From positions 1-64,000 of the forward strand of contig JAVCCG010000085.1 in the NCBI GenBank assembly GCA_030765605.1: a DNA stretch of 64,000 nt. The letters are read 5' to 3'. Source of the stretch: Candidatus Alcyoniella australis. GTDB taxonomy: Bacteria > Lernaellota > Lernaellaia > JAVCCG01 > Alcyoniellaceae. The position numbers and the translations under genes are program-made. This document shows positions 48,126 through 56,012 of the stretch, one piece after another. Numbering within the stretch: position 1 is the stretch's first letter; each line of letters starts with the position of its first letter. The notes beneath the pieces were generated by a model. It was not told where the DNA came from, searched no databases, and worked only from the letters and a program-made list of their open reading frames with translations.

Positions 48126-49397
48126 ATGCCTAATAGACTACTGACCACGATCTTGCTGACGATCGTCGTATGCTGCGCCGGACTGACCGTCGGCTGCGTG
48201 TACGACGATGATCAGGCCGCTCCTTCGGACCTGGCCCCGGGCCCGGAGGCCGACTCGGCCCGCGCCGTTGATCGGCCGTTCGTGCCGCTGGCCGACGAGC
48301 CGCCGCCGGTGGCCGAGCTGATCGCGCAGGGCAAGGCCGCACTGAACGAGCGCGACGCCCAGACCGCACACGAGAAGTTCCTGCGGGCGATCGTGTTCGA
48401 CGCGGACAATTCCGACGCGGCCTGCGGTCTGGTGCTCGCCGACGGAATCATCGTGCTCGACGCGCTGGTGGCTCTGCCCGGCCAGTTAGAGGATCCGGCG
48501 ATGCCCGGGAAGTCAGGCGGCATTGGCGAAAACCTGCAGCGGGTCGTCCAGACCTCGCTGCTGCCGCCGCTGTACGAAATGCTGGCGATGATCAAGATCA
48601 CCCAGAACGATCCGCACTTCAGCTTCTGGCTGGAGCACTACCCGCTGATCATCGACGGCGACACCTGGCTGTTCGACCTGGGCAAGGAATGGGACGCCGC
48701 GGACATGATCGCCGCTCGCGGCTATACCTACATGTTGCTCGGGCTGAGCGACACGCTGCTCAGCCTTGAGGCCGACTTCAACTGGCACACGGTATTCAAC
48801 TGGGACTACGGCTTCGGCGGCGACATCGACCAGATGATCATCAACATCTGCGATTTGCTGATCGTGCTGCTGACCGACGAGGACTACCCGAACTTCCTCC
48901 GGCTTAACCAGGAGGGCGCTACGCTGCTGCCCAAGGCCGGAATCGAATGGGGCCGCGGACTGCGCGACCTGGGACTGTGCCTCGACCTGGCCCGCGCTGA
49001 AAGCGATTTCCAGGGCGACGACGTGTTCGGCTATATCGATGAAAACGGCAACCACGCCTGGGACGTTGACGAGCGGATGCACGTGCCGTACTTCGGCGAT
49101 CTCACCGACGCCGGCACCGTAACGCTCTCCTTGTTCCAATATTACAGCCAGGGCATCGGCGCGAGTTTCCTCGACGGCACGGACGAGGATATCGACCCGG
49201 ACAACCCCAACCTGTGGAACCTCAACGAGCTGGACATGCTCTCGTTCCACCTGGGGCTGGGGCTGCCGCTGTTTGACTTGGAGATCGACTTCGGCCAGTT
49301 CTTCCGCGACGCCCAACCCGACGGACTGCACACTACGCTGCTGCTGCTCGCCGACTTAATCAAGGAAGCCCTCGAGGCCGACGGAGGTGTCCGATGA
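48126..49397 (+). CDS. Lipoprotein with helical, TPR-like domain
   Basis: ATG at 48126 gives 423 aa with lipobox LTVGC (Cys24) followed by acidic YDDDQ. A tetratricopeptide-like segment (VAELIAQGKAALNERDAQTAHEKFLRAIVFDADNSDAACGLVLAD) and a long helical region follow, with a late EF-hand-like string (FGYIDENGNHAWDVDERM). No known family recognised, but the layout resembles TRAP-type or chaperone-like lipoproteins. It leads an operon of four overlapping genes for secreted proteins; its stop overlaps the next start (ATGA). Confidence 0.65.
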   Translation: MPNRLLTTILLTIVVCCAGLTVGCVYDDDQAAPSDLAPGPEADSARAVDRPFVPLADEPPPVAELIAQGKAALNERDAQTAHEKFLRAIVFDADNSDAACGLVLADGIIVLDALVALPGQLEDPAMPGKSGGIGENLQRVVQTSLLPPLYEMLAMIKITQNDPHFSFWLEHYPLIIDGDTWLFDLGKEWDAADMIAARGYTYMLLGLSDTLLSLEADFNWHTVFNWDYGFGGDIDQMIINICDLLIVLLTDEDYPNFLRLNQEGATLLPKAGIEWGRGLRDLGLCLDLARAESDFQGDDVFGYIDENGNHAWDVDERMHVPYFGDLTDAGTVTLSLFQYYSQGIGASFLDGTDEDIDPDNPNLWNLNELDMLSFHLGLGLPLFDLEIDFGQFFRDAQPDGLHTTLLLLADLIKEALEADGGVR

Positions 49398-50731
49398 ACC
49401 GCTCGCGACTGCTCAATCTTTGCTGGCCGGCCTTGGCGCTGATCCTGATCTGCGGCCTGCTGTCCTTCGCCGCCTGCCAGGAGGATGAAGACAAGCCCGA
49501 CGTGTGGCACGACGACGACAGCGGCGACGACGATGACGACGACGACGCCTGGACGCCGCCGACCTGCGAGCTGGCCCAGGTGCCGGCTCTGCCGCTGCCC
49601 GAGCGCGCCTCTCCCAACGTAATCACCTTTGACGAGACCGGCCGGATGTCGATCAACGGCCAGCCGTTCTTCCCTTGGGGCTTCTACGGGGTGGACCACG
49701 AGGACGGCAGTATGGACGAGCTGGCCGCCATCGGCTTTAACAACGCCGAGACCTCGTCGGGCTGCTGCCAGGGCGAGCAACTGCAAGAGCACATCGACTA
49801 CATCAACGCCGCGCAGGACGCCGGGCTGTTCGCCTGGGTCAAGGCGCTCAAGCCGACCAGCCAACTCGACAGCGTGCCGCGCGCCACTCTTGAGGACTAC
49901 ATCACCCAGCGCTCCGAGCTGCCGGGGCTGATGGGCTGGTACACATTCGACGAGCCGGGACTGCACGGCGTGGACGTCGCGCTGGCGCAAGAGCTCAACG
50001 ACCTGTTTAACGAGGTGGCACCGACCATCCCGACGACGCTGGTAATGATGGCCTCGGTGCCCTATGAGACCTACATCGATTACTGCAACGTGTTCATGGT
50101 CGACCCCTACCCCGTACCGTTCATGCCCATCGGTTTGGTGACCACCCAAATCCAGGGCGCGCTCGAGGCGGCCCAGGGGCGCGGCGCCAACGGCGGAGTC
50201 AAGCCGGTGTGGGGCGTGTTGCAGGCCTTTGACTGGCAGCTTTTATGGGGCACCAAGCCCGTGGGCGAGCCCTGGCGGCCCACCCCCGACGAGCTGCGCA
50301 ACATGGCCTACCAGGCCGTGGCAGCAGGCGCCCAGGGCGTCGTCTATTGGAATTACAGCCACCTGCGCGCGTCCGAGAGCTGGGAGGGTTTCCAAGTTCT
50401 GGCCCGTCAGATCACCTCGCTCAACGCGATCTGGGTCAGCGACACATTGGATAGCTCGGCGCTGATGCCCGGCGATCAGTCGACCAGCACGGTGGTGACG
50501 CGGCTGTTCCAGTTCGACGGCCGCCATTATTTGCTGGCGGTCAACAACGGACTGACCTCCACCAGCGCGACCTTCGACATCTCGAGCCTGGGCGACAATC
50601 CGTGCGCCATTGACTACTTCGACGAGCAGGTGCGCCTGGTCAGCCGCGAGGGCACGTTCACCGAGATCTTCGAGAACCTCGGCGTGCGGTTGTTCCAGAT
50701 AACCGACGAGGCCAAGGGAGGATGCCGATGA
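49394..50731 (+). CDS. Asp-tract lipoprotein with TIM-barrel glycosidase-like domain
   Basis: The 445-aa protein has lipobox SFAAC (Cys28) followed immediately by an Asp tract (QEDEDKPDVWHDDDSGDDDD and more). Then comes a barrel-like domain: INGQPFFPWGFYGVDHEDGSMDELAAIGFN, GLFAWVKALKP, PGLMGWYTFDEPGLHG with Asp-Glu in a strand end, VVYWNYSHLRASESW, and a beta C-terminal domain (YLLAVNNGLTSTSATFDIS). The order resembles glycoside hydrolases of the GH5/GH42/DUF4434 kind. The Glu in TFDEPG may be catalytic (inference). Confidence 0.68.
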   Translation: MNRSRLLNLCWPALALILICGLLSFAACQEDEDKPDVWHDDDSGDDDDDDDAWTPPTCELAQVPALPLPERASPNVITFDETGRMSINGQPFFPWGFYGVDHEDGSMDELAAIGFNNAETSSGCCQGEQLQEHIDYINAAQDAGLFAWVKALKPTSQLDSVPRATLEDYITQRSELPGLMGWYTFDEPGLHGVDVALAQELNDLFNEVAPTIPTTLVMMASVPYETYIDYCNVFMVDPYPVPFMPIGLVTTQIQGALEAAQGRGANGGVKPVWGVLQAFDWQLLWGTKPVGEPWRPTPDELRNMAYQAVAAGAQGVVYWNYSHLRASESWEGFQVLARQITSLNAIWVSDTLDSSALMPGDQSTSTVVTRLFQFDGRHYLLAVNNGLTSTSATFDISSLGDNPCAIDYFDEQVRLVSREGTFTEIFENLGVRLFQITDEAKGGCR

Positions 50732-52767
50732 GAACTCTGCCGACTGTGGTGTTGATCGCGTTGGTCGTGCTCGCACTGGCCCTGCCGGCCCAGGCCGCGC
50801 TCAAGGCGTTGGTCGTCGATCCCAACCTCAAGCTGCGGCCCGGCGATGATCCGACCGGCGCTGCCGGTGCGGTGCTGCAGGCCGCTCGCAACGAGTACGA
50901 GCCGTTCCAGGTAGTGGTGTTCGACGATTCCGGCGCCGCACTCAGCGGATGCGACGCCTCGGTCTCGGCGCTGGCAGGCCCCGAGGGCGAGCAAATCGCC
51001 GCCAACGAGATCACGCTGTTCCGCGAGTGGTACATCGAGGTGATCATCCCCAGCCAAAAGCCGATCGACCCCGCGGCCTCGGGCTTTTGGCCCGACGGCC
51101 TGATCCCGTTCGTAGACGAGTGGGACGGCGAGGACCGCGACGGGTCGCCGTTCAACGTGGAGGCAGGCGGCTTCGTGATGTTGTGGGTCGATGTACACAT
51201 CCCGTTGGGCCAGCAGCCGGGCGATTATGCCGGCTCGCTGTCCGTGACCTGCGATGACAAGGCAGCCGTGCAGATCCCGATCGAGCTTACGGTCTGGGAC
51301 TTCACCGTACCCGAGAAGATCACCGGCGCCTCGAACTACGGCTACAGTTGCGGCAACTCCTACAACACCCACGTGCGCATGGGGTCAAGCCCAAACCGCG
51401 ATACACTCAACGACCGCTATTTTGCCGAGGCGCTTAAGCACCGGATGGGAATCAGCTCGCCGTGCTACTCCCCGACGTGGAGCTGGGACGGTTCGAGCGG
51501 CAGCTTTGACTGGACCACCTTCGACGCCCAGATGGGACCGTTCTACGACGGCGAGGTTCTACCCTGGGCCGTGGAGCTGCCCAACATGCGCCTGCCCTAC
51601 GGCGGCTCGTCCACTGACGAGCGCCGCGCCTATTGGGCGGCGTTCGCCCAGCACTTCCGCGAAAAGGGCTGGCTGGACAAGCTCTATCTCTACCTGCCCG
51701 ACGAGCCGACTCCGGCCGAATATCAAAACCTGGTGAACATCGCCGAACTGCTGCACAGCGCCGATTCCGAGCTGCGCGCCATGGCCACCGAGCAGGTCGA
51801 TCCAGCGCTGATGGGCTCGGTCGACATCTGGTGCCCGGACGAGCCGCTGTTCTCCGACAGCCTGCCCTGGGGTCCCTACCCCGAGGACTATCCTCCGCGA
51901 CAGGCCCTGGGCGAAGAGGCCTGGATGTACAACTGCATGAGCGCACAGTTTATGGTCGACTACACCAACTACTTCATTGACTCCCAAGGGCTGCACGCGC
52001 GGCTGTTCCAGTGGGTGACCTGGCGCTACCACTTCACCGGCACGCTTTACTGGCAGAGCAACTACGGCATGCGCTCGGGCCACGACGTGTGGTACGAGCC
52101 CTGGGAAGACACCTGGTTCTGCAACGGCGACGGCAACCTGTTCTATCCCGGAGCGCCCTCAATGATCGGCGGCAGCAGCGATATCCCGATCGCCTCGATG
52201 CGCATGAAGCTGATCCGCGAGGGACAGGAGGACTACGAGTACTTCCGCCTGGCCGACGCCATGGGCAAGTCCGAGCAGGTCGACACCCTGCTGCGCAGCG
52301 TGGTTCGCAAGAGCTGGGACTGGTCGCACGATCCGGCGGACACGATGCGCGTGCGCGAGCAGATCGCCCAAATCATCCTCGGCCAGGGCGATTCCACGCC
52401 CCCGGACGAGCCCGGCGCGCTCGCCCTCGAGGCCGGGGACGCGACGATCAGCGTCAGTTGGACCGACCCTGCCGACGCTGACCTGGCCTCCTGCGCGGTC
52501 TACATCGGCAAGTACCCCGACGACCGCCAGTGGCTGGTCGACGTGGCCGCGGGCACGGGCCAGTACATCATCGAGGACCTGGCCAACGGCCAGACCTATT
52601 ACATCGCGCTGGACGCGGCCGACCAGTGGGGCAACCGCAGCGCTTTCACCGACGAAATCGCGGCCACGCCCCAGGGCGCGGACGATGACGACGATGATGA
52701 CGACGACGATACGGGCGCGGACGACGACGACAACGAGGAGCCGACCTGGAACGGTTGCGGCTGCTGA
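50728..52767 (+). CDS. DUF4091 glycosidase-like protein with Fn3 and Asp-Cys tail
   Basis: Two ATGs (50722, 50728) follow GGGAGG; the second has better spacing. The 679-aa protein has a signal peptide without lipobox (TVVLIALVVLALALPAQA), a long barrel-type domain and near the end IREGQEDYEYFRLADAMGK, the diagnostic motif of DUF4091. A fibronectin III module follows (PPDEPGALALEAGDATISVSW, YYIALDAADQWGNRS), then an Asp tract and the terminal TWNGCGC. The tail recalls the one at 1350-1379 and may be a sorting or anchoring signal. Overlaps neighbours on both sides. Confidence 0.78.
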   Translation: MRTLPTVVLIALVVLALALPAQAALKALVVDPNLKLRPGDDPTGAAGAVLQAARNEYEPFQVVVFDDSGAALSGCDASVSALAGPEGEQIAANEITLFREWYIEVIIPSQKPIDPAASGFWPDGLIPFVDEWDGEDRDGSPFNVEAGGFVMLWVDVHIPLGQQPGDYAGSLSVTCDDKAAVQIPIELTVWDFTVPEKITGASNYGYSCGNSYNTHVRMGSSPNRDTLNDRYFAEALKHRMGISSPCYSPTWSWDGSSGSFDWTTFDAQMGPFYDGEVLPWAVELPNMRLPYGGSSTDERRAYWAAFAQHFREKGWLDKLYLYLPDEPTPAEYQNLVNIAELLHSADSELRAMATEQVDPALMGSVDIWCPDEPLFSDSLPWGPYPEDYPPRQALGEEAWMYNCMSAQFMVDYTNYFIDSQGLHARLFQWVTWRYHFTGTLYWQSNYGMRSGHDVWYEPWEDTWFCNGDGNLFYPGAPSMIGGSSDIPIASMRMKLIREGQEDYEYFRLADAMGKSEQVDTLLRSVVRKSWDWSHDPADTMRVREQIAQIILGQGDSTPPDEPGALALEAGDATISVSWTDPADADLASCAVYIGKYPDDRQWLVDVAAGTGQYIIEDLANGQTYYIALDAADQWGNRSAFTDEIAATPQGADDDDDDDDDDTGADDDDNEEPTWNGCGC

Positions 52768-54215
52768 CGCTGCTGCTGGTCGCCCTGTGCCTGGGCTGCT
52801 CGGGCAAGGGCGAGCGACCGGCAATGGTCGAGGTGCCCTCCGGCCCGTGCATTATCGGAGCCGACCGCGATCAGGACGGCGATTCCACGCCCGACGAGTG
52901 GCCGTTGCGAACAGTGGAGGTCGGTCGCTTTGAGATCGACCGGCTGGAAACGACCCTCGGCCAATACCTCGAATGCGTAGCAGTCGGCGCCTGCCCCGCA
53001 ACCCCCGAAGAACTGCACAACGTACCGAGCAACAGCTGCAACTGGAGTCGAGCGGACAAGCTTGAGCATCCGGTGAACTGCGTGACCTGGAAGCAGGCCG
53101 ACGCCTACTGCCGCTGGAAGAATAAACGTCTGCCCAGCGAAATCGAGTGGGAAAAGGCCGCCCGGGGAACCGACGGACGACGCTATCCCTGGGGCGAACA
53201 ATGGATCCCGGGTCGCGCCAACGTGGGCGACGGTCGCTTCACCCAGCCGGTGGGCGGCTATCCCAAAGGGGCGAGTCCCTACGGCATGCTCGACGCCCTG
53301 GGCAACGTGATGGAGTGGACCGCCGATTCCTACGAGGAAGGCCTGAATCCGGGGATCTCGCAACGTGCGGCGCGCGGTAAAAACCGCGTAGTGCGCGGCG
53401 GCGGGTTCGGCTCCGGCGACTGGGGACGGCGGCTGTCGTACCGCGACTGGTACGCGCCGGACCATCGCGACCCGCGTATCGGTTTTCGCTGCGCGCGCGG
53501 CCCGGCCTTGCCCACCGACGTCAAGAAAGCAACGCCCTGTCGCTTCGCTGGATTCAGCCAAAAGCTGAGAGTGCCCGCAGGCGAGTTCACGGTCGGCTGC
53601 GATCCGCAACAGCGCGACGACTGCCAGCCGGGCAACCCATCCCGCAAGGTACGCCTGCACAGCTTCGAGATCGACGCGCGCGAGGTCGGCGTCTACGACT
53701 ATTTGCAATGCGTCCAGGCCGGGAAATGCACCCTGCCCGACCCGGGCAAGTACTGCAACTTCGGCAAGGCCGACCGCCTCGACCATCCTGTCAACTGCAT
53801 TGATCAACAGCAGGCGCGCGACTATTGTGCTTTTCGCAACGGACGGCTGCCCACTGCCCTGGAGTGGGAAAAGGCCGCGCGCGGCATTGACGGTCGACGC
53901 TTTCCCTGGGGCGAGAGTCAACCGACCTGCAATCTGACCTGCAGCGGCATCAACGGCTCGGGCTGCGGCAAGGACCGGACGTTCGTCGCCGGCAGCCTGC
54001 TGGCCGGTGCCTCGCCCTACGGCGCATTGGACATGGCGGGCAATGTCTGGGAATGGACCGTCGATCGCGATCCGGCGCGAGACGGAGCGATGATCGTCAA
54101 GGGCGGCGCCTGGGACGAGCGCGCGGGCCTGCCCGCGTACAGGTTCCGTTCGCACCCGGCCGCGGCGCGTGTGGACAACGTCGGCCTGCGTTGCGTCTAC
54201 GCTTCTCCTAACTGA
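52755..54215 (+). CDS. Lipoprotein with two tandem FGE-sulfatase-fold domains
   Basis: TTG at 52755 lies within the end of the previous gene (13-base overlap) and starts a short lipoprotein signal (LRLLTLLLVALCLGC, Cys15). Two copies of the formylglycine-generating-enzyme fold follow (about 22-255 and 265-486), each with the set HPVNC-(V/I)-x(2)QA.AYC, RLP(S/T)..EWEKAARG.DGRR(Y/F)PWG, GASPYG(M/A)LD..GNV(M/W)EWT.D and a final GxR C. The Cys pair of true FGE active sites is not seen in the RGGGFGSGDWG region, so a structural role is likelier than sulfatase activation. Last gene of the operon. Confidence 0.82.
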   Translation: MRLLTLLLVALCLGCSGKGERPAMVEVPSGPCIIGADRDQDGDSTPDEWPLRTVEVGRFEIDRLETTLGQYLECVAVGACPATPEELHNVPSNSCNWSRADKLEHPVNCVTWKQADAYCRWKNKRLPSEIEWEKAARGTDGRRYPWGEQWIPGRANVGDGRFTQPVGGYPKGASPYGMLDALGNVMEWTADSYEEGLNPGISQRAARGKNRVVRGGGFGSGDWGRRLSYRDWYAPDHRDPRIGFRCARGPALPTDVKKATPCRFAGFSQKLRVPAGEFTVGCDPQQRDDCQPGNPSRKVRLHSFEIDAREVGVYDYLQCVQAGKCTLPDPGKYCNFGKADRLDHPVNCIDQQQARDYCAFRNGRLPTALEWEKAARGIDGRRFPWGESQPTCNLTCSGINGSGCGKDRTFVAGSLLAGASPYGALDMAGNVWEWTVDRDPARDGAMIVKGGAWDERAGLPAYRFRSHPAAARVDNVGLRCVYASPN

Positions 54216-54449: not shown

Positions 54450-54728
54450 ATGAGGACCGAATCCTAAAAACGTCTCATATTCCTGCTTGCCGCAGTCTCC
54501 ATGCTGGCACTGCTGGTCGGATGTATCCCCAACTTCACCGCCGGACCAAATTCTTCAGGTTCTTCAAGCAAAGACTTACCCGCAGGCAGCGGTGACCCCG
54601 GATCGCTAAACAACGGCGATTTTGCTGACGTCGAAATCCTGATTCTGGAAGACGGCACGCTCCATGCCCTGGCCATCGAAGTCGATGACGACAACGACGA
54701 TGATGATGACAATGACGACGAAAAATAG
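54450..54728 (+). pseudogene. Small lipoprotein with C-terminal Asp tract, early in-frame stop
   Basis: ATG at 54450 has an ideal AGGAG site 9 bases upstream. Codon 6 is TAA (54465-54467). The frame then continues through a perfect lipoprotein signal core (KRLIFLLAAVSMLALLVGC), a Ser/Gly-rich stretch and a C-terminal Asp/Asn run (VDDDNDDDDDNDDEK). The next in-frame ATG (54501) leaves only eight residues before the Cys, too short for a signal. Alternatively, one base too many in the A5 run at 54466-54470 would join ATG 54434 to the same frame. Either a recent pseudogene, recoding or an assembly error. Confidence 0.55.
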
Positions 54729-54767
54729 GTAAAGGTCTGGTTCTTTGAACCATATCTCCCTTCTACT

Positions 54768-54836: not shown

Positions 54837-56012
54837 ATGAGAAAAGCTATTGTTTTAGCCGTATTTTTACTTGCAATCACTTGCAGCCCAGCTCTGGCTA
54901 AGGCTGATATTTCCTATCTGCAAAACGTCGCGCAGCGATCCGTGCAGATTACATTCAACGGCGGGTTGGACGGTGTCTGTCTTTGGGGAGAAACTCCCGC
55001 TTTGGGCAAGACTACTATCGCGGTCCATGATCCCGATACCGAGATGAGCACCTGCCGCCTGGATGGCCTGGAACCCGGGACGTTGTATTATTACAACACC
55101 GTGGCGAATGATAAACTGATCAGCGGTTCATTCACCACTGCGCCGGATCGAGATAATACTTTCAATTTCGTGGTGATCGGGGACACACGCACCGATCATG
55201 TCGGCCATCAGTCGGTGATCGACGGCATTTTGCAATACAACCCATCAGGGTATCCGGACCTGTTTTTCAACGTCGGCGACATGGTCGGCGACGGGGGCGA
55301 CAAGGATCAATGGGGCGAGTTTTTCACGACCGAGCTGGAAATTCTGTCAAACACGATATTCATCCCGATAATCGGCAATCACGAGACTGTTTCCAAGCAC
55401 ACTTGGTTCGACAGCTTGTTTGTGCAACAGCGACATTATTGGTTCAAATATGGGAACTCCCTGTTCATCATCATGGACACCGAAGGCCGCTACGGCCCAA
55501 ACAACGAACAGTATCAGATGGTCGCGGACGCCCTTGAGCAGGCGGAAGCCGACCCTGAGATCGTCTTCAAGTTCGTTTCCACAAACCGGGAGTCACCAGC
55601 GGCAGTCACAGCCCCGACCGGACCATCGTCAAGTACTACTTCGACCTGTTCGAGAAATACAACGTTGATGTCGTCTTTAACGGCCACAACCACATCTATG
55701 AACATGGATACGTCAACGGAGTTCACTACGTGGTGACCGGCGGCGGCGGCGTGGAGCCCAGTAAGGAGTATGAGCAGCGCGAGTGGACCCGATACGTGGA
55801 GTCGACCCGTCATTTCTGCTCGGTCGAGGTCGGACCAGAGCGGCTATGAATTGCGGGTCTATCGACCGGATGGAACGTTGATGGATCAGTATTACGCCGA
55901 TTCAAGCGATGGCGGCAGTGATGGCCCGACTCCCGCAGATCTTCAGACCGAAGCTCAGATCTGCGGCATGCTGCCGCCCCGCGACCACAACAATGCGGCA
56001 GTCAACCTCTGA
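54837..56012 (+). pseudogene. Secreted metallophosphoesterase (purple-acid-phosphatase-like), two frameshifts
   Basis: The first frame (to about 55588) has a signal peptide, an Fn3-like N-terminal domain (CRLDGLEPGTLYYYNTV) and metallophosphatase motifs: VVIGDTRTDH, FFNVGDMVGDGG, IPIIGNHE. Near 55580-55592 one base appears missing; another frame then continues with VKYYFDLFEKYNVDVVFNGH and NHIYEHGY, the last metal-binding motif, to a stop at 55850. A second shift near 55838 (one extra base) restores SGYELRVYRPDGTLMDQYYA to TAA at 56012. All motifs of an active enzyme survive across the three pieces, so decay is recent or the shifts are sequencing errors. Confidence 0.72.

Follow-up and report, generated by a model that had tools for sequence, protein, structure and literature searches.

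Several described systems mark exported proteins by a tag at the C terminus. GlyGly-CTERM, PEP-CTERM and LPXTG, the tags of rhombosortase, exosortase and sortase, respectively, are carried by many exported proteins and have a three-part structure that includes a hydrophobic helix and a basic end (PMC11980579). In the MYXO-CTERM, a signature with an invariant Cys (generic form GCGC) is combined with a transmembrane helix and an Arg cluster; the myxosortase MrtX cuts it distal to the Cys, lipidation is predicted, and export proceeds via the type II secretion system (T2SS; PMC11980579). The signature Cys has an anchoring role in M. xanthus, where TraA is released once its MYXO-CTERM is lost (PMC11980579). 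Here we describe a tag that, like GlyGly-CTERM, PEP-CTERM and LPXTG, is found at the C terminus of many exported proteins but, unlike them, leaves a chain that ends at the motif itself: an Asp-rich stalk followed by GCGC and the stop codon. It is carried by the third gene (C) of a four-gene operon (A to D) in a 64,000-nucleotide stretch of Candidatus Alcyoniella australis DNA (contig JAVCCG010000085.1, positions 1 to 64,000; hereafter the window), and is very probably a lineage-wide sorting or anchoring tag.

Distribution and carriers of the Asp-GCGC tag

The product of gene C has a type I signal peptide, and its C terminus (...DDDDDDDDDDTGADDDDNEEPTWNGCGC) lies directly before the stop codon. 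Orthologs of C end in an Asp-rich linker followed by GCGC, GCGG, GCGGW, ACGCGV or a similar motif and have no helix, whereas a C homolog in genome G034 carries a complete MYXO-CTERM at its end. In view of this difference, we searched for an Asp tract followed by GCGC and a stop codon. Each of the seven class genomes, all of them drafts from the phylum-level lineage FEN-1099 (Candidatus Lernaellota), contained this pattern, and the reversed-pattern controls gave 0 matches. When one position was fixed as Asp, there were 23 matches in G003, 20 in G001, 22 in G005, 26 in G006, 39 in G004 and 20 in G002, and 2 in the window's own genome (G000), again with zero in the reversed-pattern controls. Among 379 genomes outside the class, 1 contained the pattern. 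For the phylum of G034, which we infer, partly from the MYXO-CTERM mentioned above, to be the Myxococcota, the number was 2 of 193 genomes, and when the Asp requirement was dropped the counts resembled those of the control, i.e. chance level. Spread of the tag to other phyla, GC-rich ones included, was not found in these 379 and 193 genomes. Furthermore, when named genomes were scanned, those of the matches listed that were real, long genes with an Asp tail came only from JAOSJX01, a metagenome-assembled genome of FEN-1099, i.e. Candidatus Lernaellota or Podoxiota (PMC13248872, PMC11382960), and the matches listed outside this lineage were mostly short or untailed frames.

Tag frequency was determined in about 400 kb of G002, picked regardless of matches, and in 377 kb of G000. 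The latter sample was not fully random as it included, besides the window, contigs C35, C72, C61, C1 and C126 around earlier matches, so that the G000 count may be high. In G002, a Cys was present among the last five residues of 9 of the 10 Asp-rich tails, as compared to 13 of 300 other genes (Fisher p = 7e-11); the corresponding numbers for G000 were 8 of 11 and 18 of 278 (Fisher p = 2e-7). When all loci were pooled, in a set partly chosen for GCGC, 96 of 100 Asp-tract tails had a Cys end. Scaling of the samples gave an estimated ~119 tagged genes per genome for G002 and ~91 for G000. The earlier note on this DNA had recorded the Asp-GCGC tail of C, while its lineage-wide extent on about 100 unrelated proteins per genome had escaped attention. 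The carriers are unrelated outside the tail (column identity 8%) and belong to subtilases, M14 carboxypeptidases, metallophosphoesterases, kelch propellers and other families, including two matches to 'myxosortase-dependent M36'. At one locus of G002 (L090; contig C38, 222500-229600), five short GCGC-ending exported genes lie in tandem.

Conceivably, such tails could arise neutrally, by drift of Asp repeats and GC-rich codons at gene ends with the Cys motif as a by-product. The Asp runs are repeat-like and their length differs between orthologs, as is evident from the alignment of the gene A family. However, the reversed controls were zero, the tag was absent from the other phyla searched, GC-rich ones included, and the Asp-tailed, Cys-ending genes in the G002 and G000 samples were all exported. 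In addition, the GCGC codons have 30 different spellings in 74 genes, which shows that selection acts on the protein. We therefore consider neutral tails very improbable. Chance or composition as the source of the tag was rejected on the basis of the reversed controls, the codon spellings and the Fisher enrichment.

Signal peptides were called with a simple custom script rather than a trained predictor. In this way, a signal peptide could be located in 61 of the 74 GCGC-ending proteins from six genomes. Three of these 61 matched the regular expression for a lipobox, but since all three matches precede an AxA site, all 61 were read as type I signal peptides. The tag and the lipobox look mutually exclusive in the larger tagged set (Fisher p = 2e-6); in G002 alone, this exclusivity was not significant (p = 0.06). 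Of the lipoproteins, 26 of 43 in G002 and 9 of 23 in G000 have DDD no more than 30 residues past the lipobox Cys. These Asp-stalked lipoproteins are the mirror image of the tag, with an N-terminal Cys and then an Asp stalk. Purely as an analogy, they recall the Bacteroidetes lipoprotein export signal, where SDDDD follows the +1 Cys and acidic residues next to the lipid-bearing Cys drive surface export (PMC5080379). That signal is N-terminal and short, whereas the tag of C is C-terminal and its order is reversed.

Relation to MYXO-CTERM and myxosortase

The tag shares with the MYXO-CTERM/myxosortase system of Myxococcota (TIGR03901, NF040593) its signature, i.e. a short motif of the generic form GCGC with a key Cys, as well as the N-terminal signal peptide. 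The likeness extends to dozens of unrelated carriers per genome, the presence of a T2SS and, in most class genomes, a myxosortase-family protease. Unlike the MYXO-CTERM, the tag has a long Asp stalk and no transmembrane helix, the chain stopping at GCGC, and an Arg-rich cytoplasmic end is absent from the tagged chains, which end at the last Cys or at most four residues past it. Since complete MYXO-CTERM proteins occur in six of the same seven genomes, at 1-4 each, the tagged proteins might belong to the ordinary MYXO-CTERM type, with the helix concealed by a frameshift, by read-through of the stop or by an annotation error. However, a hydrophobic segment 3' of the stop was found in at most 2 of 74 cases in each of the three frames, and TGA, TAA and TAG are all used as stop codons after the tag. 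Of the explanations weighed here, this is the least credible, and a helix hidden by read-through or frameshift was rejected on the grounds that there is no downstream hydrophobic coding potential beyond the 2 of 74 per frame.

A search with TIGR03901 gave 1-4 matches over the cut-off per genome in six of the seven genomes, as compared to dozens of tags; G003 had no match, and gene C was not among the matches. In the window's own genome, a complete MYXO-CTERM is carried by an exported protein on contig C1 (L118; 32004-32105). Mrt_core exceeded its cut-off in five of the seven genomes, in G000 with 100.4 versus 100 bits, and the best-matching families were MrtP and MrtC. G003, which is 99% complete, had neither an Mrt_core nor a MYXO-CTERM match, yet it carries at least 23 tags. 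Since the tag is devoid of the helix and the Arg cluster and is kept in G003, it looks, from its sequence, like a MYXO-CTERM that has already been trimmed to its mature end.

We therefore propose that the Asp-GCGC tag is a pre-trimmed C-terminal surface-anchoring tag that acts independently of myxosortase, most likely through lipidation, and assign a probability of about 0.55 to this reading as a whole. The protein would be exported by Sec via its type I signal peptide. The terminal Cys would then be modified, most likely lipidated, by a further enzyme, and a myxosortase cut would not be needed because the chain already ends at the cut position. The modified protein would subsequently reach the outer surface through type II secretion and be held there on its acidic stalk, much as the Asp-stalked lipoproteins would be held from their N termini. 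Lipidation of the terminal Cys, for which the MYXO-CTERM and the mirror-image lipoproteins serve as analogies, has in our estimate about an even chance. It is somewhat less probable, and put forward tentatively, that an undescribed transferase lipidates the Cys of an acidic, soluble GCGC end, so that about 100 proteins per genome would be C-terminally anchored in the absence of both a hydrophobic segment and a sortase-type cut.

Two other roles for the tail have to be weighed against anchoring through a lipid. Two Cys residues were present among the last eight residues of 74 of 96 tails, and CxC is well known as a motif for disulfides or metal binding. The terminal CxC could thus be a thiol tag which, by a disulfide to a surface partner or by metal binding, holds the Asp-stalked proteins in an envelope layer without the help of lipid; no lipid transferase would be required. 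However, only a single Cys was found in the last eight residues of 18 of the 96 tails, and a thiol tag leaves both the match to the MYXO-CTERM signature and the mirror image in the lipoproteins unexplained. We regard it as unlikely. Less likely still is a tail that serves as an outer-membrane secretion signal, for instance for the type II system, with the proteins being released instead of anchored. Matches to the T2SS secretin GspD in all seven genomes would fit such a signal, as would the predominance of secreted hydrolases and propellers among the carriers. To our knowledge, however, short C-terminal tags are not known for type II substrates, and in M. xanthus it is the signature Cys that anchors, with TraA being released without its MYXO-CTERM (PMC11980579).

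Several observations weigh against a pre-trimmed, myxosortase-independent anchoring tag. The absence of myxosortase from G003 is based on a draft assembly of 170 contigs, and tags also occur in the five genomes where a myxosortase-family protease is clearly present, so that a link between tag and protease is possible there. G001 has one complete MYXO-CTERM, but its Mrt_core match was weak (69 bits). Furthermore, the end of the tag varies (GCGG, NACSS, AACGS, SCCGRL) and is thereby looser than a strict transferase motif. We know of no soluble C terminus lacking a membrane helix that serves as a substrate of Lgt or another bacterial lipid transferase, and no precedent for the lipidation step was found. 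Likewise, a literature search of partial coverage found no case of a C-terminal Cys tag without a membrane helix.

The operon in the window and its linkage in sister genomes

Gene C and its neighbors are laid out in the window as follows.

48126 to 49397, + strand: gene A, helical lipoprotein with the lipobox TVGC, then VYDDD
49394 to 50731, + strand: gene B, Asp-stalk lipoprotein and possible glycoside hydrolase, with the lipobox FAAC and a TFDEP motif
50722 to 52767, + strand: gene C, exported protein predicted to be a GH123/DUF4091-type beta-N-acetylgalactosaminidase, with an Fn3-like domain and the Asp-GCGC tag
51700 to 51705, + strand: predicted catalytic Asp-Glu pair of C, residues 327-328 (LPDEP), from the alignment with 8k2j
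52681 to 52752, + strand: Asp-rich linker of C, 10 Asp and then TGADDDDNEEPTWN, read from the sequence
52753 to 52764, + strand: GCGC codons of C, read from the sequence, with TGA next and no transmembrane segment after
52755 to 54215, + strand: gene D, lipoprotein with two FGE-fold domains that do not have the FGE cysteines, with a TTG start and the lipobox CLGC

All four open reading frames (48126-54215) were confirmed, and the overlap of the four genes claimed in the earlier note was borne out: A and B overlap by 4 nt, B and C by 10 nt, and C and D by 13 nt, the TTG start codon of D being located inside the codons for the GCGC tail of C. The lipoboxes of A and B were called by the script, and that of D by reading LVALCLGC. 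The operon thus combines three N-terminal lipoproteins, A, B and D, with C and its C-terminal tag. All four products are exported and probably attached to the surface. Downstream, the window contains a short lipoprotein-like frame (54452-54729) with an Asp-rich end without Cys and an in-frame TAA five codons past its ATG, and a metallophosphoesterase-like exported frame (54837-56000) that is broken near 55560 and has the appearance of a decayed gene.

Gene C had been described as a DUF4091-Fn3 protein with an Asp-GCGC tail, and this description held. It matches GH123_cat (E = 3.3e-18; 66.6 bits versus the Pfam cut-off of 23.1), and its Fn3-like part, identified by a match to the Fn3 part of NF045522, spans residues 557-651. 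Its closest relatives in the PDB, 8k2f (E = 4.5e-31) and 8k2j (E = 1.1e-27), are both GH123/DUF4091 beta-N-acetylgalactosaminidases. The catalytic DE motif of GH123 was defined in PMC11087588, and LPDEP of C aligns with LADEP of 8k2j, so that the consecutive catalytic Asp-Glu is present. C has the N-terminal domain, the DE-motif barrel and the DUF4091 region in common with these enzymes and, unlike them, adds the Fn3-like domain, the Asp stalk and the GCGC end. These findings support the prediction that C is a GH123-type beta-N-acetylgalactosaminidase.

For gene A, no Pfam family was matched. Its structure model (mean predicted local distance difference test score, pLDDT, of 70) has helices at 62-122 with TPR-like first hairpins and no PDB fold match at E ≤ 0.001. 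One A ortholog matched TPR_11 (E = 0.001). Of the 'TPR-like lipoprotein' proposed previously, the lipobox therefore stands, and TPR-likeness comes from one relative and the structure model. In an alignment of seven orthologs, the lipobox Cys of the others is followed by a long Asp stalk. The A family has several paralogs per genome in all seven class genomes, and its N-terminal Asp-stalk part alone makes up most of the 61-126 matches per class genome. Gene B has its lipobox and an Asp stalk (DDDDDDD at residues 45-51), as had been noted. Its assignment as a glycosidase rests on a GH42 match (E = 0.009; 15.9 bits) below the Pfam cut-off of 21 and on TFDEP (T184-P188), which is invariant across four orthologs. 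No relative was found in the PDB, and the structure model was unusable (mean pLDDT 46). B is thus possibly a glycoside hydrolase.

Gene D matches FGE-sulfatase in two stretches (Pfam; E = 3.2e-84), and its nearest relatives are SUMF2, OvsA and SUMF1. The sequence match to SUMF2 (1y4j) and SUMF1 (1y1e) is at the level of the fold, in two tandem domains. The catalytic Cys pair of 1y1e (MCHRSYC) aligns to Cys-free residues in D, where the first domain was aligned and the second was read by eye. Because this pair is absent, D was rejected as a true formylglycine-generating enzyme (FGE). In agreement with the original description of a tandem FGE-fold lipoprotein without the FGE cysteines, D is, as judged from these alignments, an FGE-fold protein of other function.

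Linkage was surveyed at the loci of eight C orthologs, drawn from six sister genomes. Gene A comes after C at six loci in five genomes (L013, L014, L016, L017, L018 and L020), and B follows at three loci in three genomes (L013, L017 and L020), with the gene order C-A-B as opposed to A-B-C in the window. Of the remaining loci, L015 ends at a contig end and L019 has no A. In G001, an M14 carboxypeptidase with an Asp-GCGC tail (L016:10085-12205) adjoins the A ortholog. No homolog of D was found at the C-ortholog loci of the sister genomes; D is a local addition to the A-B-C set. Neighborhood conservation beyond chance is hence seen for A and C and, at fewer loci, for B, but not for D, which was unlinked in all relatives seen. 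The refuting condition named in the earlier note, unlinked genes in relatives, thus did not overturn the A-B-C set. Since D is unlinked, the operon corresponds only partly to the surface glycan-handling apparatus that had been envisaged: exported, probably surface-attached products and a GH123-type C agree with it, while a linkage of D in relatives, a glycosidase identity of B and a complex were not supported. The exported proteins of the operon form a small set that probably handles N-acetylgalactosamine-containing glycans.

A probable sorting signature without a helix

The known prokaryotic C-terminal sorting tags with which we compared the Asp-GCGC tag all have a membrane helix that is acted on by an intramembrane enzyme or a sortase. 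Our findings suggest that this tag represents a hitherto undescribed mode of surface attachment for proteins. With the signature kept on about 100 proteins, the helix gone and no myxosortase detectable in one genome, modification of the Cys would be separable from cleavage. This bears on the question, raised in PMC11980579, of which enzyme modifies the MYXO-CTERM Cys and whether this modification depends on the protease. For an uncultured phylum, moreover, the tag offers a simple sequence rule by which its surface proteome may be predicted.

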